Shown: positions 2,138-49,281 of the stretch, piece by piece
Layout: the number at the start of each line of letters is the position of its first letter
Position numbering within the stretch: the first letter of the stretch is position 1
Program-made: the position numbers and the translations under genes
Source: an uncultured Mucispirillum sp.
GTDB taxonomy: Bacteria > Chrysiogenota > Deferribacteres > Deferribacterales > Mucispirillaceae
Direction of reading: 5' to 3'
NCBI GenBank assembly: GCA_944325215.1
Contig: CALUZC010000001.1
Location: 1-64,000 of the forward strand
Length of the DNA stretch: 64,000 nt
The notes under the pieces: model-generated
The model's database searches: none
Told to the model about the DNA's origin: nothing
The model's input: the letters and a program-made list of their open reading frames with translations, nothing else

Positions 2138-2653
2138 TTGTCTAAACCTAAGAATATACGCACATGTGCATACTGTGGCATAAAAACTGAAAAATCAAAA
2201 CTTTTAAGGATTAATCTTCCATTATTATGCTTTGATTTTTACCAGAATAAAAATTTTCGCAGTTTTTATGTATGCCAAAATATAAAATGTATTAGCAGGG
2301 TATTGAAAAAACATTCGGTAAATAAGTATTTAAATAAAGAAATAAATGATTCAAAGACAGTTGTTTTTAATGCTTTTTTAAAGGAATTATCAAGTATTAT
2401 AACAAGATTATTTGAGAATAATAATTTAGATGATAATAATTTACCACATTATAGTGGTTTATTGTTATATAAAAATAATGTAAGTGGGTATAAAGGGGAA
2501 GCAATACCTGTAAGTAATTTACTGTATATGGGCAATAAAGATACATGTTTTGTTTCAGATAGTAATGTTGCAAAAAGGTTATTAAATTATAAAAATATAA
2601 TAATAGATATTGACGGTTTTAATGGAGAATTAAATGGCTGTAAAAAAAGTTAG
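2138..2653 (+). CDS. ylxR: YlxR/RnpM-like RNA-binding protein with C-terminal extension
   Basis: The first ~80 residues fit the YlxR (DUF448) family found between nusA and infB. They contain RTCAYCGIKTEKSKLLRI and a second Cys pattern CQNIKC, with basic residues typical of RNA binding. In Gram-positive bacteria this family (RnpM) modulates RNase P; whether that holds here is unknown. The protein is 171 residues, longer than the usual ~90; the remaining ~90 residues may correspond to the L7Ae-like partner sometimes fused to YlxR but are too diverged for me to confirm. The start is TTG at 2138, with AAAGGG nine bases upstream. The 3' end overlaps infB by 20 bases, suggesting translational coupling. 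Confidence 0.75.
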   Translation: MSKPKNIRTCAYCGIKTEKSKLLRINLPLLCFDFYQNKNFRSFYVCQNIKCISRVLKKHSVNKYLNKEINDSKTVVFNAFLKELSSIITRLFENNNLDDNNLPHYSGLLLYKNNVSGYKGEAIPVSNLLYMGNKDTCFVSDSNVAKRLLNYKNIIIDIDGFNGELNGCKKS

Positions 2654-5528
2654 CGATGTGGCAAAAAATGCTGGTTTAAGTGTGGAAGAAGTTATCAAAA
2701 CGTTTCAAGCTTCAGGGGTAAAAGTAACAAATGGTAATGATAATGTTACAGAAGGTGATATTGTTGCAGCAGGTTTTGATAAACGTGGTCAGCTTGATAA
2801 ACGTCAAGAAATGCTTCAAAAAGCTAGGGAGCGTTTTAAAAAGGGCGTGAAAAGTAAAGAAGTAATTGTTAATAATAAAGGTGGTTCTGGGCAGGGTGGT
2901 CCAAGTATTAAAATTAGTAAAGAAGAGCTTGAACAGCGTAAAAAACGCCTTGACCAGCAAGTGCATAAAGTTGATAAAGAAAGAGAAGCATATAACAAAG
3001 AACGTGCAGAACATGCTTCTAACAATGAAAAACCAGCAGAAAAACAAGCAGAAAAGCCACAAAACCAAACTGTAGAACAGAAAAATGCCGTAAAAGAGCA
3101 GCCACAGGTTCAAAATACTGCCAAACCAAAAGAAAATACGCAGCCAAAACAAGAAAATAAGCCTGCACCTAAAAGTAATGACCGTCCAAAAGAACAAAGA
3201 AATGATGACAGAAAGGATAAACCGTTTAATAAAGATAAAAATAAACAGGGTGATAAAGGCAAGTTTAATAAAGATAGAAGTGATAAAGGGGATAAGCAAG
3301 GTTTTAAAGATAAAGACAAACGTTTTTCTCAAGATAAAGATACATCAGGTGATAAATTCCGTGATGGAAAAGGTGGAAAAACATCATCAATGAACCAGTC
3401 AAGATTATCTAATGATAATGTGTTTATGACTGGCGATGAAGATAGAAAAAGAATAGTTAAAAAGAAAGAAGACGATAATAAAGATAAAGAAAAAGAAAAC
3501 AAAAAACCAAAAAATAAAAAAGATGGTAAACGTTCAAAAAGCTGGATTAAGACTATTAATGAAGGTATGGACGAATTAAGCATTGAAAGTGAAGTTGAAA
3601 ACACTCCAACAATTTCACCTAATATTGATATATCTGACTTACTTGATGTTGATACAGACAGGCAGATAAAATCTAATCATTATAATAAAAATAAAGCAAA
3701 TAAGAAAGCTCATAAAAAGCAGGATAAAACTCAGGTTAAAGCATTTGTTCGCCCTGAAAAAGTAGAAATTGGGGAATATATTGTAATATCTGAATTTGGT
3801 GCTTTAATAGGTGTTAAAACTACAGAGCTTATAAAAAAATTATTTGCTATGGGTATTATGGCAAATGTAAACCAATCTATTGATGCAGAAAGTGCTCAGC
3901 TTTTAGGTTTAGAATATGGGGTAGATGTAACAGTTAAAACTATTACAGAAGACGACCTTTTACCAGTATATGAAGATAAAGAGGAAGATTTAGAAAAACG
4001 TCCACCAATTGTTACAGTTATGGGGCACGTTGACCATGGTAAAACTTCTTTATTAGATGCAATCCGTTCTACAAGTGTTGTATCAGGTGAAGCTGGTGGT
4101 ATTACTCAGCATATTGGTGCTTATGAAGTTGAATGCAGTAATGGTACTGTTACATTTTTAGATACGCCAGGTCATGAAGCTTTTACAACACTTCGTGCAC
4201 GTGGTGCATTACTTACTGATATTGTAATATTAGTTGTTGCAGCAGATGATGGTGTTAAACCACAAACAAAAGAAGCTATTGACCATGCAAAAGCAGCAGG
4301 TGTTAGAATAGTAGTTGCAATTAACAAAATAGATAAAGATGGTGCAAATCCTGACAGGGTTAAGCAGCAGTTAGCAGAGTATGGTATTATACCAGAAGAA
4401 TGGGGTGGTGAATACCAATTCCAAGAAATATCTGCTAAAAAACGATTACATATTGATGATTTACTTGACAGGGTTTTATTAGAAGCAGAAATGCTTGATT
4501 TAAAAGGAAACCCACACAGACCTGCAGAAGGCGTTGTAATTGAAAGCCGTCTTGATAAACAAAAAGGTCCTGTTGCTACAGTTTTAGTGAAAAATGGAAC
4601 ACTTAGAAAAGGTGATACTTTTATTTCTGGTTCTCAATTTGGTAAAGTAAGGGCAATGTTTAACTATAAAGGCTTATCTATAAAAGATGCAGGGCTTTCT
4701 ATACCTGCTGAAGTTATGGGTTTTAGTGAACTTCCTGAAGCTGGTGAAAAATTTATTGTAACAGATGAAAAAACAGCAAAACAAGTTACAGAATTAAGGG
4801 CAAAAATTGCAAAAGAACAGCAAATGGCAGATAGGGGCAAATTATCTTTAGCTGATTTCTTTAGTAAAATGCAGGAAGGGGAATTAAAAGAATTAAATAT
4901 TGTATTAAAAGCTGATGCACAGGGTTCATTAGAAGCATTATCTTCATCACTTTTAAAACTTTCTAATAAAGAAGTAAAAGTTAATATTATTCATGATGGT
5001 ATCGGTGCTATTAATGAATCTGATGTATCATTAGCTGTGGCATCTAACGCTATTATTATAGGTTTTAATGTGCGACCTGATGCAAAAGCAAAACAGGCAG
5101 CAGAAAGAGAAAAAGTAGATATTGAGCTTTACTCTGTAATTTATAAAGCAATAGATGATGTAAAACTTGCATTAGAAGGTTTATTATCTCCAGAAATGAA
5201 AGAAAATATTATAGGTCATGTAGAAATTCGTCAAATTTTCTCTGCACCTAAAATTGGTAAAATTGCAGGCTGTTTTGTGGTAGACGGTAAAGTTACTAGA
5301 AACTCAAATGTTAGGGTAATTAGGGATTCTATTGTAATATTTGATGGAAAACTTAGTTCTTTAAAACGTTTTACAGATGATGCAAAAGAAGTTGTAGCAG
5401 GTTATGAATGTGGCTTAACTATCGAAAAATACCAAGATATTAAAGAAAATGATGTTTTGGAAGTATATGAAGTAGTTGAAGAAAAAAGAACATTAGAAGA
5501 TGTAGAAAGGGCAGAAAAAGAGAAATAA
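2634..5528 (+). CDS. infB: Translation initiation factor IF-2
   Basis: IF-2 is the GTPase that places initiator tRNA on the 30S subunit and promotes 50S joining. An N-terminal IF2N domain (about 1-55) is followed by a long lysine/glutamate/asparagine-rich low-complexity linker (about 60-345). A second IF2N-like domain lies near 375-440. The GTPase domain has GHVDHGKTSL (about 464), DTPGHEAF (about 510) and NKIDKDG (about 564), and the beta-barrel and C-terminal fMet-tRNA-binding domains follow. At 964 residues it is at the long end for the family because of the linker. GGAG precedes the ATG, which lies inside the end of ylxR. Long reading frames opposite the linker are composition artefacts. 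Confidence 0.97.
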   Translation: MAVKKVSDVAKNAGLSVEEVIKTFQASGVKVTNGNDNVTEGDIVAAGFDKRGQLDKRQEMLQKARERFKKGVKSKEVIVNNKGGSGQGGPSIKISKEELEQRKKRLDQQVHKVDKEREAYNKERAEHASNNEKPAEKQAEKPQNQTVEQKNAVKEQPQVQNTAKPKENTQPKQENKPAPKSNDRPKEQRNDDRKDKPFNKDKNKQGDKGKFNKDRSDKGDKQGFKDKDKRFSQDKDTSGDKFRDGKGGKTSSMNQSRLSNDNVFMTGDEDRKRIVKKKEDDNKDKEKENKKPKNKKDGKRSKSWIKTINEGMDELSIESEVENTPTISPNIDISDLLDVDTDRQIKSNHYNKNKANKKAHKKQDKTQVKAFVRPEKVEIGEYIVISEFGALIGVKTTELIKKLFAMGIMANVNQSIDAESAQLLGLEYGVDVTVKTITEDDLLPVYEDKEEDLEKRPPIVTVMGHVDHGKTSLLDAIRSTSVVSGEAGGITQHIGAYEVECSNGTVTFLDTPGHEAFTTLRARGALLTDIVILVVAADDGVKPQTKEAIDHAKAAGVRIVVAINKIDKDGANPDRVKQQLAEYGIIPEEWGGEYQFQEISAKKRLHIDDLLDRVLLEAEMLDLKGNPHRPAEGVVIESRLDKQKGPVATVLVKNGTLRKGDTFISGSQFGKVRAMFNYKGLSIKDAGLSIPAEVMGFSELPEAGEKFIVTDEKTAKQVTELRAKIAKEQQMADRGKLSLADFFSKMQEGELKELNIVLKADAQGSLEALSSSLLKLSNKEVKVNIIHDGIGAINESDVSLAVASNAIIIGFNVRPDAKAKQAAEREKVDIELYSVIYKAIDDVKLALEGLLSPEMKENIIGHVEIRQIFSAPKIGKIAGCFVVDGKVTRNSNVRVIRDSIVIFDGKLSSLKRFTDDAKEVVAGYECGLTIEKYQDIKENDVLEVYEVVEEKRTLEDVERAEKEK

Positions 5529-5529
5529 T

Positions 5530-5883
5530 ATGCAGGAAACTTTACGCACGAAACGTGTTGCAGAATTAATAAGGCAGGAAGTTGCTCGTATTATACGAGA
5601 TGATGTTCATGATCCAAAAGTAAAAGATGTGGTTATAACTTTAGTAAAAGTTAGTGTAGATTTAGATATTGCAAGAATATACTGGACTACATATAATACA
5701 GATGCCATAAAAGGAATACAAGCAGGTTTAGAGCGTTCAGCAGGATTTATCCGTAAGGAAATATTAAAATCTGTTCGCATGAAAAAAGTTCCAAAGTTAG
5801 AGTTCTGTATAGATGATTCAAGGCAGGAAGCAGATAAAATAGATAGTCTTTTATCATTAATAGAAAAGGAAAACCATGAATGA
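5530..5883 (+). CDS. rbfA: Ribosome-binding factor A
   Basis: RbfA is a KH-fold factor that binds the 30S subunit late in its maturation. The 117-residue length is typical. The N-terminal pattern RVAELIRQEVARIIRDDVHDPKV and the C-terminal VPKLEFCIDDS are family hallmarks. It begins one base after the infB stop, and its own stop overlaps the truB start (ATGA), so it is translationally coupled on both sides. Confidence 0.95.
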   Translation: MQETLRTKRVAELIRQEVARIIRDDVHDPKVKDVVITLVKVSVDLDIARIYWTTYNTDAIKGIQAGLERSAGFIRKEILKSVRMKKVPKLEFCIDDSRQEADKIDSLLSLIEKENHE

Positions 5884-6776
5884 ATGGTGTAATAAACGTC
5901 TATAAAGAATCAGGTGTTACTTCATTTGATGTGGTTGCAAAAATTCGCAGGTTATTAAATGTATCAAAATGCGGTCATCTTGGCACATTAGACCCTATGG
6001 CTGAAGGTGTGCTTCCAATCTGTATAGGTTATGCTACAAGATTTTCAGACTATATTTCCAGTGTTGATAAAGAATATGTGGCTGAATTTATGCTTGGAGT
6101 TAAAAGTGCAAGCTATGATAATACATCAGAACTGGAAAAAGTATCAGATATGGTAGTGGAAAAAAGCCAGATAGAAAGTGTGCTTTTAGAGTTAACAGGT
6201 AAAATATCATTAACTGTTCCTGCATATTCTGCTAAAAAAATAAATGGTGTTCGTGCATATAAGCTTGCTAGAAAAGGCGAAATAGAAGATGCAGGAAGCA
6301 GAGAAATGGTTATTTATTCAAATACTCTTATAAACTATGAATATCCTTATGGTGTAATAAGAGTATCCTGCGGTAAAGGCACATATATAAGAAGTATAAT
6401 TAACACTATGGGCGAGCGTCTAGGTTGTGGAGCTGTTATGAGCGGGCTTATTCGTTCAGCTAATGGTATATTTTCATCTCAAAAATCATTTAAACTATCT
6501 CAACTTGAAAGTATGGTTGAATATGGAAGTATTCAACAGGCTGTTACACCAGTATATGAACTTTTAGACTGGGGCAGGGCTGTAATAAAAGATAGTGCTG
6601 TAAAGCAGATAAAACATGGTATATCTCCAGACCATTCAGCATATATTAACCTGCCAATAGAACATACTGGAGATAATTTCTTTATAATGGATAATAAAAG
6701 TAACTTAATTGCTGTGGCTGAGCGAATAGAAAATTCTTCATTTCCTTTAAAATTAAAAATGGTAATAAATATCTAA
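5880..6776 (+). CDS. truB: tRNA pseudouridine(55) synthase TruB
   Basis: TruB converts U55 of the tRNA T loop to pseudouridine. The catalytic motif GHLGTLDPMAEGVLP is present with the nucleophile Asp38. Downstream, YSAKKINGVRAYKLAR and GTYIRSIINTMGERLGCGA are family motifs. A C-terminal PUA-like region follows, ending at 298 residues, a normal length. The start overlaps the rbfA stop as ATGA. This is the last gene of the operon; no clear terminator lies within the ~120 bases before the next gene. Confidence 0.95.
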   Translation: MNGVINVYKESGVTSFDVVAKIRRLLNVSKCGHLGTLDPMAEGVLPICIGYATRFSDYISSVDKEYVAEFMLGVKSASYDNTSELEKVSDMVVEKSQIESVLLELTGKISLTVPAYSAKKINGVRAYKLARKGEIEDAGSREMVIYSNTLINYEYPYGVIRVSCGKGTYIRSIINTMGERLGCGAVMSGLIRSANGIFSSQKSFKLSQLESMVEYGSIQQAVTPVYELLDWGRAVIKDSAVKQIKHGISPDHSAYINLPIEHTGDNFFIMDNKSNLIAVAERIENSSFPLKLKMVINI

Positions 6777-27381: not shown

Positions 27382-27408
27382 TTGACTTTTAATGGGGGGG
27401 GGTATGAT
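27382..27408 (+). promoter_or_regulatory. Poly-G promoter, probable phase-variable switch
   Basis: TTGACT (27382-27387) and TATGAT (27403-27408) are separated by 15 bases that contain nine consecutive G (27394-27402). Slippage of the G run would change the spacing, which at 15 is shorter than the optimal 17. A strong SD (AAGGAGG, 27425-27431) follows, then ATG and only four codons before a stop (27440-27454). No longer gene fits directly behind it. Confidence 0.7.
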
Positions 27409-27542: not shown

Positions 27543-28082
27543 ATGAGAAAAATATTATTTATTTTATTATTACTCGTTTTTTCTTTAGGTTCTGTTTATG
27601 CTGCTGATCTATCATTTGGTGGTGGTGTTGCATTATCTAGAACAAAAAGTGGTGGTTATGGTGAATTTGGTGCAACTTTATATAAAAATAATAATTTTGA
27701 GATGAGAAACTATCTTTCAATTGATGGTTATGGTAATAATAACACATCTTTTAATATTGGTTATCTTGGTTTTACTGAAAAATTAACTTTTGGTATGTCT
27801 AGTGCTCAGTTGGAAAACAATATATTTGTTCTTCCTTATGGTTTTATAGCAGGTAACTTTTCACTTGTTGGAGCAAAGGGTAATAATTTAGGCGATGAAC
27901 CTTTTTACTATGAAGTATATGCTGGTTTAGGTGCAGATTTATACAGTGGTAAAAATGTATCAATATTTGTTGAAGCAGGTGGTGGCTATGAATCATTTAC
28001 TTCAAGGCTGCCTGGCTATGATGTATTAGGAGCAGGGTTTGCACGTATTAATGTGGGTATTAGAGGATTTGTAAGAAAATAA
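27543..28082 (+). CDS. Probable outer-membrane beta-barrel protein
   Basis: 179 residues with a Sec signal peptide (MRKILFILLLLVFSLGSVYA). The mature part consists of alternating Gly/aromatic-rich strands (FGGGVALSRTKSGGYGEFG, YLGFTEKLTFGMSS, EVYAGLGADLYSGKNVSIF, FARINVGIRGFVRK), which fits a small eight-stranded outer-membrane barrel of the OmpX/outer-membrane-beta-barrel type. The C-terminus lacks a final Phe (ends FVRK). The specific function is unknown. It has its own consensus promoter and is the first gene on this strand before the NifU-like pair. Confidence 0.72.
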   Translation: MRKILFILLLLVFSLGSVYAADLSFGGGVALSRTKSGGYGEFGATLYKNNNFEMRNYLSIDGYGNNNTSFNIGYLGFTEKLTFGMSSAQLENNIFVLPYGFIAGNFSLVGAKGNNLGDEPFYYEVYAGLGADLYSGKNVSIFVEAGGGYESFTSRLPGYDVLGAGFARINVGIRGFVRK

Positions 28083-44532: not shown

Positions 44533-45144
44533 TTATAAAGTAATAATATTTCCCATTGGTATCATGTTATTTTTTATTATTATATTGCTATCATTCCATG
44601 GAGAATTGTTTGATACATAAATACCTTTATTATATAAGCCAATTGTATTTAATGATGATAGTAACTTTTCTTCATTAATTGATACAGTGCTATTATTTTG
44701 AATATTAGCATATGCTTCACTTACATATAAAAATGCATCACGAACTTTCCATGCTTTCATATCAAGGCAGGTTATATCATAATCAAATGGGATTATTGAA
44801 CCAAGTGATAATAATAATTTTTGTAAGTTATTATTAGATATTACTTTACTTGATATGTTCGCATTTAATGTATGGCTGTATACATATACATTTTCAACTC
44901 TTGTGTTAGTTAGTAATTTATTTACTTGGTTAATATTTTCACTTACTAAAAATACATTGTATGGTTTTGTAGTATAATCTACCATATTTGATGATATAAC
45001 ATTTTCTGATGTTGTAACTTGTAATGGCAAGTTTGTTTGTAATATCTTTATTCCTGCTAATGCTGATATGCCTAATGCGCTATATTTTAAAAAATTTCTT
45101 CTTGTGGTTTCTGTTGTTTCTAAATTATTTAATGTAATATCCAT
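44533..45144 (-). CDS. Tat-signal protein B, cassette copy 1
   Basis: 203 residues. A 14-residue N-region leads into a twin-arginine signal, TRRNFLKYSALGISALAG, so it should be exported folded. The mature part (about 35-203) has no cofactor or enzyme motif I recognise; it is Asn/Ser/Leu-rich with mixed helices and strands and one Cys (DITCLDMKAWKVRDAF). It starts 20 bases after gene A and shares its promoter. It is almost identical to the second copy at 47,096-47,707, differing mainly in the signal and the last ~40 residues. Function unknown. Confidence 0.8.
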   Translation of the reverse strand: MDITLNNLETTETTRRNFLKYSALGISALAGIKILQTNLPLQVTTSENVISSNMVDYTTKPYNVFLVSENINQVNKLLTNTRVENVYVYSHTLNANISSKVISNNNLQKLLLSLGSIIPFDYDITCLDMKAWKVRDAFLYVSEAYANIQNNSTVSINEEKLLSSLNTIGLYNKGIYVSNNSPWNDSNIIIKNNMIPMGNIITL

Positions 45145-45164
45145 ATTTTTTTACTCCCTAATAA

Positions 45165-46589
45165 TTATTTCATATCTCTTGGTGGAACTTTATTATAATC
45201 TATCTTTGTAGCAAGCACATCTTGTGGAAAAATATATGGTCGAGCCGAAGCAAACCCTGACGAATACTTACGATAAAGCAAGTGAGCTACATAATCATAC
45301 AAACCATAATAATTTATAGCAGTTTCTGATGGAAATTCTATAAAATAGTTTGCACGATGAATAATAATTTGCCATAATTTCTTATAAAAATCCAGCACTG
45401 ATTTTTTTGTGCTGTTTTTATCCCTAGGGTCTTTCATGTTACCTATTTCAATCCACCTATACACACCTGGATATTCGCTTGAACCACCATACATACTGCT
45501 AAAAAACTGAGTACCAAAATCAAGCACTAAATCAGGTGGAAATTTTTCATCAAAATAAGGGTCTAACCCATCTATTAACTTTCTATTATGAGAATATTGA
45601 CGAAGTTTTTCTGCTCTAATAGGATTAGTGTGAATGAATACATTATTTGTATAACATGCTATAAGTTCATCTAAATTACCACCAAGTATTATTGCCATAC
45701 GCATACAAGCCATATAAAATACTTCATAATTATTACTATTAACATCATAATTTGCATTTCTCATAGCCAGTTCAAAAGCATTTCTATCTTGATATAAATA
45801 TCCTGCTGTCATAAATAAATCTACAGCTAAAATCGTTCCTTCTAAATAAAATGCTAAATCTAAAAGAGCGTTTTTTTGTCCTTTCATTAATGCTTCATCT
45901 AGATATTTAGTAGCTGTTGTTTCATTTAAACCAAGGCTTGCAGGTGTTATGGAAGTATATAAAAGTTTATCACTATCTATAGCAAACCTGTATATTGCAT
46001 AATAACCGTAATAACCATCTGGAGAGCCTGCTTTAATAAGCTTGTTATATAAATCTAAACTTTCTTTTATATCTTTTATACCTTGAGATTCTTCTACGTT
46101 TTCAATTCTAGAAAACAGTAAATCTGCCAATTCTTTACTGGCTATTAGATTATTTTTATTAGAAGCATATCGCAGGTTGTTTAATATATTATCCTGCGCA
46201 GCTTTATCCATGTTTTTAAATGACCTGTTTGATGAAGATATGGAATTCATGGCAGCATCATATTTACTTTTACTTGTGGCATCAGTTATATTTGGATATT
46301 TATATAATTTATCAATGGTTAAATGTGGCAGAATTACACCACCTTTAAAACCCATTTTATTAATTAAATATTTCTTTTTTTCCACATGGCTTAATTTTTC
46401 AAACTTTGCTTTTTCATCAGTAGTCCATTTCATACCATTTGGTGCTGATTTAAAACTTTTTAAATCATCTTTAATAATAGTATAGAATAAATTAATGGCA
46501 GGACCATTATACTTTCTTTCTTCTGATTTAGGAAACAAATTTTTAGTTAATGTTAATTCATCTGCATTTATAACAATTTTATCACCCAT
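45165..46589 (-). CDS. Sel1-like cytoplasmic protein A, cassette copy 1
   Basis: 474 residues, no signal peptide or membrane segment. Helical repeats of Sel1/TPR-like form occur about 175-300 (LYNKLIKAGSPDGYYGYYAIYRF, YLDEALMKGQKNALLDLAF, AFELAMRNANYDV). The conserved C-terminal block includes DGLDPYFDEKFPPDLVLDFG and SARPYIFPQDVLATKID. I do not recognise a named domain with certainty. It uses its own ATG with GGAGATTTAATA upstream. A remnant of a third A gene precedes it. It shares long identical blocks with copy 2 and diverges in others (mosaic). Gene B follows in the same unit. Confidence 0.8.
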   Translation of the reverse strand: MGDKIVINADELTLTKNLFPKSEERKYNGPAINLFYTIIKDDLKSFKSAPNGMKWTTDEKAKFEKLSHVEKKKYLINKMGFKGGVILPHLTIDKLYKYPNITDATSKSKYDAAMNSISSSNRSFKNMDKAAQDNILNNLRYASNKNNLIASKELADLLFSRIENVEESQGIKDIKESLDLYNKLIKAGSPDGYYGYYAIYRFAIDSDKLLYTSITPASLGLNETTATKYLDEALMKGQKNALLDLAFYLEGTILAVDLFMTAGYLYQDRNAFELAMRNANYDVNSNNYEVFYMACMRMAIILGGNLDELIACYTNNVFIHTNPIRAEKLRQYSHNRKLIDGLDPYFDEKFPPDLVLDFGTQFFSSMYGGSSEYPGVYRWIEIGNMKDPRDKNSTKKSVLDFYKKLWQIIIHRANYFIEFPSETAINYYGLYDYVAHLLYRKYSSGFASARPYIFPQDVLATKIDYNKVPPRDMK

Positions 46590-46670
46590 TATTAAATCTC
46601 CTACACTGTAATGTTTTATATGCTTTAATATGTGGTTTCTTTAATATTTACCTACTCTTGTGGTATATTA

Positions 46671-46836
46671 TTAAAACTCACTAATACCATTTGGTACTAA
46701 TATCAAACTTTTTAAATTATCTAAAATTGATACATAATTTAATAATTTTGATGATTTACCATTTTTTTTCTTCTGATTTTTTAAAATAAGCATCCATAAA
46801 TGCAAGTTGTTCAGGTGAAAATATAATTTGACTCAT
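46671..46836 (-). pseudogene. Frameshifted 5' remnant of a third A gene
   Basis: From ATG at 46836 (SD GGAGGGAG, 46853-46846) it reads MSQIIFSPEQLAFMDAYFK then KSEEKKW-stop, 26 codons, matching the start of A copy 2. Removing one base from the A8 tract (46769-46762) restores the frame for about 25 more codons with clear similarity (GKSSKLLNYVSILDNLKSL, VPNG). The remnant then ends. It lies between the poly-C promoter and A copy 1, which has its own start. Confidence 0.75.
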
Positions 46837-46935
46837 TTTTGAAAACTCCCTCCAATTTTTGTAGAAATATTATAACATACTGATGAATAAAAGGATATTA
46901 TAATATTTTAAATTAGTCATATAACTTCGAAACTT

Positions 46936-46966
46936 AGTATAATCTTTTAGGGGGGGGGGATGTCAA
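46936..46966 (-). promoter_or_regulatory. Poly-C phase-variable promoter, copy 1
   Basis: Minus strand: TTGACA (46966-46961), spacer of 19 bases that contains ten consecutive C (46959-46950), and TATACT (46941-46936). The homopolymer sits inside the -35/-10 spacer, as in known phase-variable promoters of Neisseria. Eight C would give the optimal 17-base spacing. The same element, with the same C10, precedes copy 2. Confidence 0.82.
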
Positions 46967-47018
46967 GGGTAAATATTTAAAAATATGAATTATTGTAATA
47001 ATAAATCAATTTAAATTT

Positions 47019-47045
47019 GTGGCACTATTTTAATGGTAGTGCCAC
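47019..47045 (-). terminator. Hairpin after the second A/B cassette
   Basis: GTGGCACTA (47019-47027) pairs with TAGTGCCAC (47037-47045) about 50 bases after the B stop codon. No strong T-run follows on the minus strand. Confidence 0.6.
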
Positions 47046-47095
47046 ATTATGAATTGAATACTTTTAATTGTGTATATAGTATATATATTTGCATA

Positions 47096-47707
47096 TTATA
47101 ATGATATTAAATTTCCCATTGGTAGCATATTATTTTTTATGATTACATTTTTATCATTCCATGGAGAATTGCTTGATACATAAATACCTTTATTATATAA
47201 GCCAATTGTATTTAATGATGATAGTAACTTTTCTTCATTAAGTGATACAGTGCTGTTATTTTGAATATTAGCATATGCTTCACTTACATATAAAAATGCA
47301 TCACGAACTTTCCATGCTTTCATATCAAGGCAGGTTATATCATAATCAAATGGGATTATTGAACCAAGTGATAATAATAATTTTTGTAAGTTATTATTAG
47401 ATATTACTTTACTTGATATGTTCGCATTTAATGTATGGCTGTATACATATACATTTTCAACTCTTGTGTTAGTTAGTAATTTATTTACTTGGTTAATATT
47501 TTCACTTACTAAAAATACATTGTATGGTTTTGTAGTATAATCTACCATATTTGATGATATAACATTTTCTGATGTTGTAACTTGTAATGGCAAGTTTGTT
47601 TGTAATGCATTAATTCCTGCTAATGCTGATATGCATAAAGTGCCATATTTTAATAAATTTCTTCTTGTGGTTTCTGTTGTTTCTAAATTATTTAATGTAA
47701 TATCCAT
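47096..47707 (-). CDS. Tat-signal protein B, cassette copy 2
   Basis: 203 residues, same length as copy 1. Tat signal TRRNLLKYGTLCISALAG with an altered hydrophobic part, then a mature part identical to copy 1 for most of its length; scattered changes near the end include S to L, N to S and I to V positions. It follows A copy 2 by 19 bases. Function unknown. Confidence 0.8.
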   Translation of the reverse strand: MDITLNNLETTETTRRNLLKYGTLCISALAGINALQTNLPLQVTTSENVISSNMVDYTTKPYNVFLVSENINQVNKLLTNTRVENVYVYSHTLNANISSKVISNNNLQKLLLSLGSIIPFDYDITCLDMKAWKVRDAFLYVSEAYANIQNNSTVSLNEEKLLSSLNTIGLYNKGIYVSSNSPWNDKNVIIKNNMLPMGNLISL

Positions 47708-47726
47708 ATGTTTTACTCCCTAATAA

Positions 47727-49151
47727 TTATTTCATATCTCTTGGTGGAACTTTATTATAATCTATTTTTGTAGCAAGCACATCTTGTGGAAAAATATATG
47801 GTCGAGCCGAAGCAAACCCTGATGGATATTTACGATAAAGCAAGTGAGCTACATATGAAAACACATCAACAAAATAGTATTCTGCAATTTCTACTCCATA
47901 TTTTACAAAATAACTGTATTCATATAAAATAATCTGCCAAAGTTTATTGTAAAAATCCTGCACAGTTTGTTTAGTGCTGTCTTTATCCCTAGGGTCTTTC
48001 ATTTTACCTTTTTTTATCCAAAAATAAACACCAGGATGGTTATTCGAGCCACCATACATACCACCATAAAAGTGGGTTCCAAAATCAAGCACTAAATCAG
48101 GTGGAAATTTTTCATCAAAATAAGGGTCTAAGCCATCTATTAACTTTCTATTTCCTGCATACTGGCGAAGCTGGTTTACTCTAGCAGGGTTATTATAAAC
48201 ACTTACACCATTTGAATAGCATGATATTAATTCATCTAACTTACCACCAAGCATTATTGCCATACGCATACAAGCTATATAAAATATCTCATAGTCTTCC
48301 TTGTTAATATCAAAGCTGGCACTTCTCATAGCTTTTTCAAAAGCATTTCTATCTTGATATAAATAACCTGCTGTTATATACATGTCAACTGCCATACTTG
48401 AACCTTCTGTAGTTTCTGCCAAATCAAATAAAGCTTGTTTTTGTCCCATTTTTATAGCTTCATTTAAATATTTTGCAGCTGTTGTTTCATTTAAACCAAG
48501 GCTTGCAGGTGTTAGAGAAGAATATAAAAGTTTATTTCTATCTACAGTAAACCTGTATATTGCATAATAACCATAATAACCATCTGGAGAGCCTGCTTTA
48601 ATAAGCTTGTTATATAAATCCAAACTTTCTTTTATATCTTTTATACCTTGAGATTCTTCAACATTTTCAATTCTAGAAAACAGTAAATCTGCTAATTCTT
48701 TACTGGCTATTAGATTATTTTTATTAGAAGCATATCGCAGGTTATTTAATATATTATCCTGCGCAGCTTTATCCATGTTTTTAAAGGACCTGTTTGATGA
48801 AGATATGGAATTCATGGCAGTATCATATTTACTTTTACTTGTGGCATCAGTTATATTTGGATATTTATAAATAGTATCAAGAGTTAAATGTGGTAGAATT
48901 ACACCACCTTTAAAACCCATTTTATTAATTAAATATTTCTTTTTTTCCACATGGCTTAATTTTTCAAACTTTGCTTTTTCGTCAGAAGTCCATTTCATAC
49001 CATTTGGTGCTGATTTAAAACTTTTTAAATCATCTAAAATCAATACATAATTTAATAATTTTGCTGATTTACCATATTTTTTTTCTTCTGATTTATCAAA
49101 AACTTCATTGATAAATTGTAACTGTTCAGGTGAAAATATAATTTGACTCAT
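47727..49151 (-). CDS. Sel1-like cytoplasmic protein A, cassette copy 2
   Basis: 474 residues. The layout is as in copy 1: N-terminal 42 residues diverged (MSQIIFSPEQLQFINEVFDK), residues about 43-205 almost identical, about 205-435 diverged with shared islands (DGLDPYFDEKFPPDLVLDFG), and the last ~36 residues identical. The start has GGAGGGAATTTTCAAAA upstream. It stands directly behind its poly-C promoter with no remnant between. Same unknown function as copy 1. Confidence 0.8.
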   Translation of the reverse strand: MSQIIFSPEQLQFINEVFDKSEEKKYGKSAKLLNYVLILDDLKSFKSAPNGMKWTSDEKAKFEKLSHVEKKKYLINKMGFKGGVILPHLTLDTIYKYPNITDATSKSKYDTAMNSISSSNRSFKNMDKAAQDNILNNLRYASNKNNLIASKELADLLFSRIENVEESQGIKDIKESLDLYNKLIKAGSPDGYYGYYAIYRFTVDRNKLLYSSLTPASLGLNETTAAKYLNEAIKMGQKQALFDLAETTEGSSMAVDMYITAGYLYQDRNAFEKAMRSASFDINKEDYEIFYIACMRMAIMLGGKLDELISCYSNGVSVYNNPARVNQLRQYAGNRKLIDGLDPYFDEKFPPDLVLDFGTHFYGGMYGGSNNHPGVYFWIKKGKMKDPRDKDSTKQTVQDFYNKLWQIILYEYSYFVKYGVEIAEYYFVDVFSYVAHLLYRKYPSGFASARPYIFPQDVLATKIDYNKVPPRDMK

Positions 49152-49250
49152 TTTTGAAAATTCCCTCCAATTTATGTAGAAATATTATAACATACTGATA
49201 AATAAAAGTATATTATAATATTTTAAATTAGTCATATAATTTAGAAACTT

Positions 49251-49281
49251 AGTATAATATTTTAGGGGGGGGGGATGTCAA
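49251..49281 (-). promoter_or_regulatory. Poly-C phase-variable promoter, copy 2
   Basis: Minus strand: TTGACA (49281-49276), 19-base spacer with ten C (49274-49265), TATACT (49256-49251), then a 100-base leader to the A start. Sequence around it is nearly identical to copy 1. It lies immediately after the stop codon of the cytochrome c gene. Confidence 0.82.

Follow-up and report, generated by a model that had tools for sequence, protein, structure and literature searches.

Studies of type VI secretion systems (T6SSs) in Vibrio cholerae have indicated that effector modules displace one another and leave behind arrays of immunity genes that retain effector 3' ends (PMC5361080). Sel1-like repeats have been reported in PldB immunity proteins, including PA5088 (PMC13133936). 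The known hitchhiker complexes of the twin-arginine translocation (Tat) pathway carry a Tat signal on one partner only (PMC10924467), and in Neisseria meningitidis a poly-C promoter tract governs Opc, one extra C having increased its expression (PMC3447861). Here we compare these systems with a locus of an uncultured Mucispirillum sp., at positions 44533 to 49281 of a 64,000-nucleotide stretch of contig CALUZC010000001.1 (hereafter the window). At this locus a gene for a helical-repeat protein, A, and a gene for a Tat-signal protein, B, stand twice in tandem, each pair behind a promoter with a run of ten C.

The window is part of a 2.55 Mb draft genome (G000) of Mucispirillum, a dweller of mouse-gut mucus that is associated with inflammation models (PMC5285517); the literature searched on Mucispirillum and phase variation gave passing mentions only. 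With moderate confidence, we read the A-B locus as an orphan immunity module of a Mucispirillum-specific T6SS effector family, with B as an escort and with poly-C tracts as switches. The feature is real and not a product of chance. Orphan T6SS immunity and poly-C promoter switching are known kinds, and what is possibly new is the Tat escort, together with the combination of orphan immunity and a contingency promoter.

Relatives of A and B at type VI secretion loci

Relatives of the A-B pair are found in T6SS loci, directly 3' of a very large effector-like open reading frame (ORF) linked to VgrG or PAAR. In the genome of the window itself, an array on contig 45 runs from a large ORF (1540 aa, beginning at the contig end) through A, B, A and B to a protein that matches class 3 lipases. 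The order in genome G004 is VgrG, an 1810 aa ORF, A, B, A, B, two membrane-type proteins and the lipase; the N-terminal part of the 1810 aa ORF resembles a PAAR-like protein of other loci, "PAAR-like" being a label given by reading of the sequence, to which Pfam gave no PAAR match. An array of the same kind in genome G003 adjoins the TssB, TssC, TssF and Hcp genes. At further loci, a PAAR-like protein and an ORF of 1304-1377 aa are followed by A', a more distantly related family of about 560 aa, and its small Tat-signal protein, B'. The original prediction had suspected a system with parts in antagonism and a link to type VI secretion. These VgrG-linked loci and Tss/Hcp neighbours, where A stands next to B in other genomes, support that suspicion.

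Every inner unit of the T6SS arrays (7/7) follows a scrap derived from the 3' end of the large effector; upstream of the second A on contig 45, for example, this scrap reads MPVLLGSLIYDEHWFKSTIDEE-stop. By analogy with V. cholerae, such scraps would be what displaced effectors leave behind in an array of immunity genes. No effector 3'-end remnant was found upstream of the window copies. Immunity of A-B to the neighbouring lipase is less likely, because the scraps before A derive from the large effector and not from the lipase; the lipase also has membrane-protein neighbours of its own. In G003 (L046, G003:C6, 7423-7818), a B gene is deletion-fused to the final residues of a lipase gene, which shows that the B end of the array has recombined with the lipase end.

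Among the 385 relatives searched, the A family was present in five Mucispirillum genomes only, the relatives with these genes in a scan of named genomes are likewise Mucispirillum, and a plasmid search returned no match; the genomes are few and in draft assemblies. Two phage-capsid matches to A, at 6e-3, were taken as chance. The C-terminus of the large effector occurs in four genomes, all of which have A-B (4/4), and in no genome without A. Genome G006 (single-contig, complete and T6SS-positive) has neither A-B nor the effector C-terminus. Mucispirillum schaedleri isolate SI.A35 (G001) carries a single A-B pair at the same place as the window pairs, with flanks of 98-99% DNA identity to the window and an A that is 99% identical to window A copy 1. 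Given one pair at the same site within near-identical flanks, the duplication in the window is a recent difference at near-strain level. Between G000 and G001 the orphan A shows a ratio of nonsynonymous to synonymous substitution rates (dN/dS) of 0.13 over 17 changes, which indicates that it is kept under purifying selection.

The sequence types of A and B, which were defined and matched on few loci, do not agree with each other. Type I A proteins are those of contig 45, G007 and G003, type II those of the window, G001 and G004, and these types match those of the effector C-terminus; B types follow host lineage. Between the sister genomes G003 and G004, housekeeping proteins are 99-100% identical, B 90-92%, A 58-59% and the effector C-terminus 34%. 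Of the window proteins, A copy 1 has 75-78% identity to the A of G004 and 57-58% to the A on contig 45 of its own genome; for B the relation is reversed, with 56-58% identity to the B of G004 and 75-85% to that of contig 45. Approximately unbiased (AU) tests, with groups named after the identity tables had been inspected, rejected a grouping by host lineage for A (p 3e-11) and one by the type of A for B (p 2e-48). Judged by type, the window pairs are orphans whose A matches the effector of another species. An effector and its immunity protein should change together, and A and B do not, which argues against A as effector with B as its immunity protein. The secreted effector with an exported immunity protein that the original prediction gave as an example is thus not sustained: A lies in the immunity position, with effector scraps, and the orphan A persists in G001, where no such effector was found. 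Since the type of A tracks the effector C-terminus and that of B the lineage, A would be the effector-specific immunity protein and B a general partner, and we hold it probable that A belongs on the immunity side.

The window B proteins carry TTRRN(F/L)LK, a textbook Tat motif, and the RR is present in every aligned B. TatC is encoded in the same genome; the Pfam TAT model scored below its cut-off on B. In diverged loci, B' (78-86 aa) and B'' (79 aa) consist of a Tat-type signal (KR or RR) and a short tail, and one of the two A' genes of G007 is without its B'. The predicted structure of B is unusable (predicted local distance difference test score, pLDDT, of 37). The Tat pathway transports folded proteins. 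That B' and B'' are little beyond a Tat signal suggests that B escorts A across the membrane, a role to which we give an even chance; B may otherwise protect the periplasm as a layer of its own, or act as a membrane anchor. Inspection of A showed no hydrophobic N-terminus, and its cytoplasmic look beside the Tat signal of B agrees with the earlier proposal of one part inside and one outside the membrane.

Neither Pfam nor NCBIfam put a family name to A, to B or to the large effector. The Sel1 repeat (PF08238) did not match the window A copies, and DUF6396 (PF19933), considered for A, went unmatched at every A locus of four genomes. In the predicted structure of A, residues about 90-270 form a confident helical repeat within a model that is half-confident overall. 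Its best PDB fold matches are the Sel1-repeat protein LpnE and then the immunity protein PA5088 (E 5e-3 to 9e-3), and the A profile matches SEL1L at 0.006. The Sel1-like label first given to A suits it as a loose fold label, and the modelled likeness to PA5088 and Sel1 proteins is a lead only.

Some further arrangements were observed in the related genomes. The T6SS locus L068 (G003:C6) encodes a VgrG-linked protein of 1331 aa with a C-terminal M23 peptidase domain (2559-6554), and the position after it, where A-B stand elsewhere, is taken by a protein of 311 aa that has a Sec-type signal (1608-2543); the two are a candidate pair of peptidoglycan-attacking T6SS effector and immunity protein. 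A gene graveyard in G007 (L045, G007:C31, 8284-10273) contains pieces of VgrG, a scrap of an effector 3' end and the start of an A gene up to residue 39, and this scar resembles the A remnant of the window. In G001 (L071, G001:C67, 10327-14004), two proteins of 558 and 566 aa, which belong to a third and distant A family, stand around a 79 aa Tat-signal protein and next to a 719 aa RNA ligase/metallophosphoesterase protein; this too is an orphan, its contig having no large effector.

Anatomy of the window locus and its poly-C promoters

The order at the window locus is promoter-A-B-promoter-A-B, all on the minus strand, with the following features:

49276..49281, minus strand: promoter 1, -35 box TTGACA, read from the sequence
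49265..49274, minus strand: promoter 1, C10 tract in the 19-base spacer (G10 on the plus strand)
49251..49256, minus strand: promoter 1, -10 box TATACT, read from the sequence
47727..49151, minus strand: A copy 1, 474 aa, Sel1-like helical-repeat protein without signal peptide; proposed effector-specific immunity protein
47096..47707, minus strand: B copy 1, 203 aa, with the Tat signal TTRRNLLK; proposed to escort A through Tat or to anchor it
46961..46966, minus strand: promoter 2, -35 box TTGACA, read from the sequence
46950..46959, minus strand: promoter 2, C10 tract in the 19-base spacer (G10 on the plus strand)
46936..46941, minus strand: promoter 2, -10 box TATACT, read from the sequence
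about 46683..46836, minus strand: remnant of an A N-terminus, about residues 1-52, with one frameshift
45165..46589, minus strand: A copy 2, 474 aa; divergent allele with a different N-terminus and its own AGGAG
44533..45144, minus strand: B copy 2, 203 aa, Tat signal TTRRNFLK

The two tandem pairs of a 474-residue A and a 203-residue Tat-signal B are present as originally described. The description as a duplicated two-gene system stands for the two pairs, but the duplication is not a clean one: in the alignment the A copies are 76% identical and the B copies 94%, and the broken, frameshifted N-terminus of a third A had been overlooked. Behind this broken start, which follows promoter 2, A copy 2 has a fresh start at 46589 with an AGGAG of its own. 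The whole sits alone amid respiratory and transporter genes. A copies within arrays are mosaics, with zero-difference blocks beside diverged N- and C-terminal segments, a pattern that points to the exchange of segments and to gene conversion. The dN/dS between A copies is below 1 in all segments with a usable estimate, and positive selection between them was rejected.

Both promoters read TTGACA-T-C10-TAAAA(G/T)AT-TATACT, with a spacer of 19, which confirms the C10 previously noted in the spacer of each copy. In the 2.55 Mb genome, runs of nine G/C have 43 start positions, far above the chance expectation of about 0.3 (independent bases) or 1.4 (first-order Markov) computed from the composition of the window, whose G+C is about 30%. 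Beyond the window, the sequence analysed comprised the surroundings of the A-B loci and of such tracts. A search of this genome gave 12 occurrences of the pattern TTGAYATN-C7 and 0 of a reversed control pattern, and promoters of this pattern are present in seven of the tested Mucispirillum genomes and one related genus, with the reversed control again at 0. The other poly-C promoters mostly precede lipoprotein-like genes and have spacers of 13-17. The tract length is mostly 9, and matching promoters of relatives vary: C7 against C9 in G004 and G003, and C10, C9 and C10 in G000, G001 and G007. At the A-B promoter of G001 the tract is A+C9, the total spacer still being 19.

Phase variation of the window promoters, as first proposed, is likely, with the poly-C lying between the -35 and -10 boxes and with tract lengths that, compared with one genome per species, differ between genomes at other promoters; switching at the A-B locus itself is plausible. 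Because a spacer of 19, with TATACT as the -10 box, exceeds the usual optimum of 17, the promoters are probably weak in the sequenced state. Loss of one or two C from this spacer should raise output, opposite to what would hold for the 15-base lipoprotein promoters.

Other tracts were also noted. A promoter set of the form TTGACATT-C9-(A/G)TGA-TATAAT lies mostly upstream of lipoprotein-like genes (MKKSLLSILLVVFLAVISGCAD... type), some of them tandemly duplicated. It is found genus-wide, in this genome for example at L028, L029, L031 and L037 (C2:51687, C2:78385, C3:3182, C6:78323 and 79127), and it looks like a phase-variable surface-lipoprotein regulon of Mucispirillum. Coding sequences hold G/C tracts of 9-11 at L072 (1475, 3828 and 7681), L074, L075, L076, L078, L079, L082, L083 and L084; some of these genes are apparently of glycosyltransferase type, judged by their N-termini, and the intragenic tracts are candidate translational contingency loci. 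An intergenic G9 at 27394-27402 of the window, without a clear -35 box, is about 140-150 bases from an S20-like ORF and a 179-aa exported ORF at 27543.

Alternative explanations

A different assignment would make A a T6SS effector that the large VgrG/PAAR-linked carrier takes along as cargo, and B the immunity protein against it, brought to the periplasm by Tat. A followed by an exported B is the canonical effector-immunity order, A is signal-less and B predicted to be exported, and the large ORF could be a carrier only. The uncoupled types of A and B across loci speak against this, as do the size of B' and B'', too small for obvious immunity domains, the loss of B' beside one of the two A' genes of G007, the persistence of an orphan A-B where the carrier C-terminus was not found and the failure of A to match any catalytic family; we regard it as unlikely. 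Quite improbable, in our judgement, is a role of A in the cytoplasm as an adaptor or chaperone for the loading of the large effector, B being a separate envelope factor. Its position directly 3' of the effector gene and its match in type to the effector C-terminus would suit such a role, yet an adaptor would be useless without the effector and the orphan is kept under purifying selection; moreover, multiple copies with effector scraps between them are typical of immunity genes and not of adaptors (PMC5361080). It is also conceivable, if rather doubtful, that A works as an immunity protein in the cytoplasm only, where its effector would also act, B being an independent second layer in the periplasm. 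This would agree with an A without signal peptide and with an effector whose site of action is not fixed to the periplasm, but B' and B'' hold little beyond the Tat signal, and it is hard to see what a short Tat tail by itself would be for unless it has a folded partner, Tat hitchhiking being established (PMC10924467).

For the promoters, the tracts might not be switches but belong, as a fixed element of structure, to a promoter class of the genus. The prevailing length of 9 would fit, as would a spacer of 19 that was kept in all three A-B promoters despite a C-to-A change in one tract. However, promoter poly-C length controls Opc in N. meningitidis (PMC3447861), matching promoters of relatives differ (C7/C9 and C9/C10), and many more G/C tracts lie within coding sequences, as in contingency-locus genomes, so that we consider fixed tracts rather unlikely. 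The reading of an escorted and switchable immunity module has weaknesses of its own. The spacer is 19 in 3/3 known A-B promoters, and no length change was seen at the A-B locus. A itself has no export signal. The best Sel1 (PF08238) score of the A family is 13.7 bits, against a curated cut-off of 30.7, and the fold matches of its half-confident model have low TM-scores. Gene conversion within genomes could account for the discordance of B, and simple tandem duplication could also explain the scraps in arrays that hold near-identical copies. The effector C-terminus was not found in G001, which carries an orphan A-B; this genome is a draft, in which the effector may be missed.

Proposed mechanism and comparison with described systems

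In the mechanism that we propose, rival cells would inject a large VgrG/PAAR-delivered effector made by other strains, and cells with an active tract length would produce A and B. A, as a Sel1-like helical solenoid, would bind the C-terminal part of the effector. Folded A may bind B and leave through the Tat translocase by hitchhiking, and B would perhaps anchor it at the periplasmic face, where the effector is expected to arrive. The second, divergent A allele may allow a wider set of effectors to be recognised. Where the tract is inactive, a cell would spare the cost, and slippage of the tract, by changing the spacer length, would make the cells of one population differ in protection. The wider notion is tentative and in our view possible but less than probable: a recognition part exchanged with the effector type, an interchangeable Tat-signal escort kept by lineage, and orphan immunity placed under contingency-locus control by a poly-C promoter.

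If true, a gut commensal would protect only a part of its population against the toxins injected by rivals, and bet-hedging in T6SS defence would become directly testable. Tat co-export on a separate escort would likewise be a new periplasmic route for immunity proteins and would explain the separate evolution of the recognition and export parts. The A/B family offers a handle on T6SS conflict within Mucispirillum.

With the arrays of V. cholerae, the A-B loci share repeated immunity genes 3' of VgrG and effector, 3' ends of displaced effectors between them and orphans without effector (PMC5361080). They differ in having two genes per unit, copies that are alleles of one type and an orphan pair outside T6SS loci with its own poly-C promoter. 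The Sel1-repeat T6SS immunity proteins of Pseudomonas aeruginosa (Tli5b, PA5086-PA5088) resemble A, as modelled, in their helical Sel1-like solenoid, and also in their tandem copies and their place at a T6SS effector locus, whereas A has no export signal of its own and no significant sequence relation to them, is paired with a Tat-signal partner and lies beside an effector that is not a PLD lipase. With the opc-type promoters of N. meningitidis, the window promoters have in common a homopolymeric C tract, the length of which sets expression in that species (PMC3447861); Opc is a surface adhesin, whereas the target in the window is an apparent T6SS immunity module. Like the Tat hitchhikers known from Ni-Fe hydrogenases and formate dehydrogenases (PMC10924467), A is a signal-less protein encoded beside a Tat-signal partner. 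In contrast to them, no cofactor enzyme is concerned here, the Tat partner can be as small as 78-86 aa, and a role of such a pair in T6SS immunity would be new.

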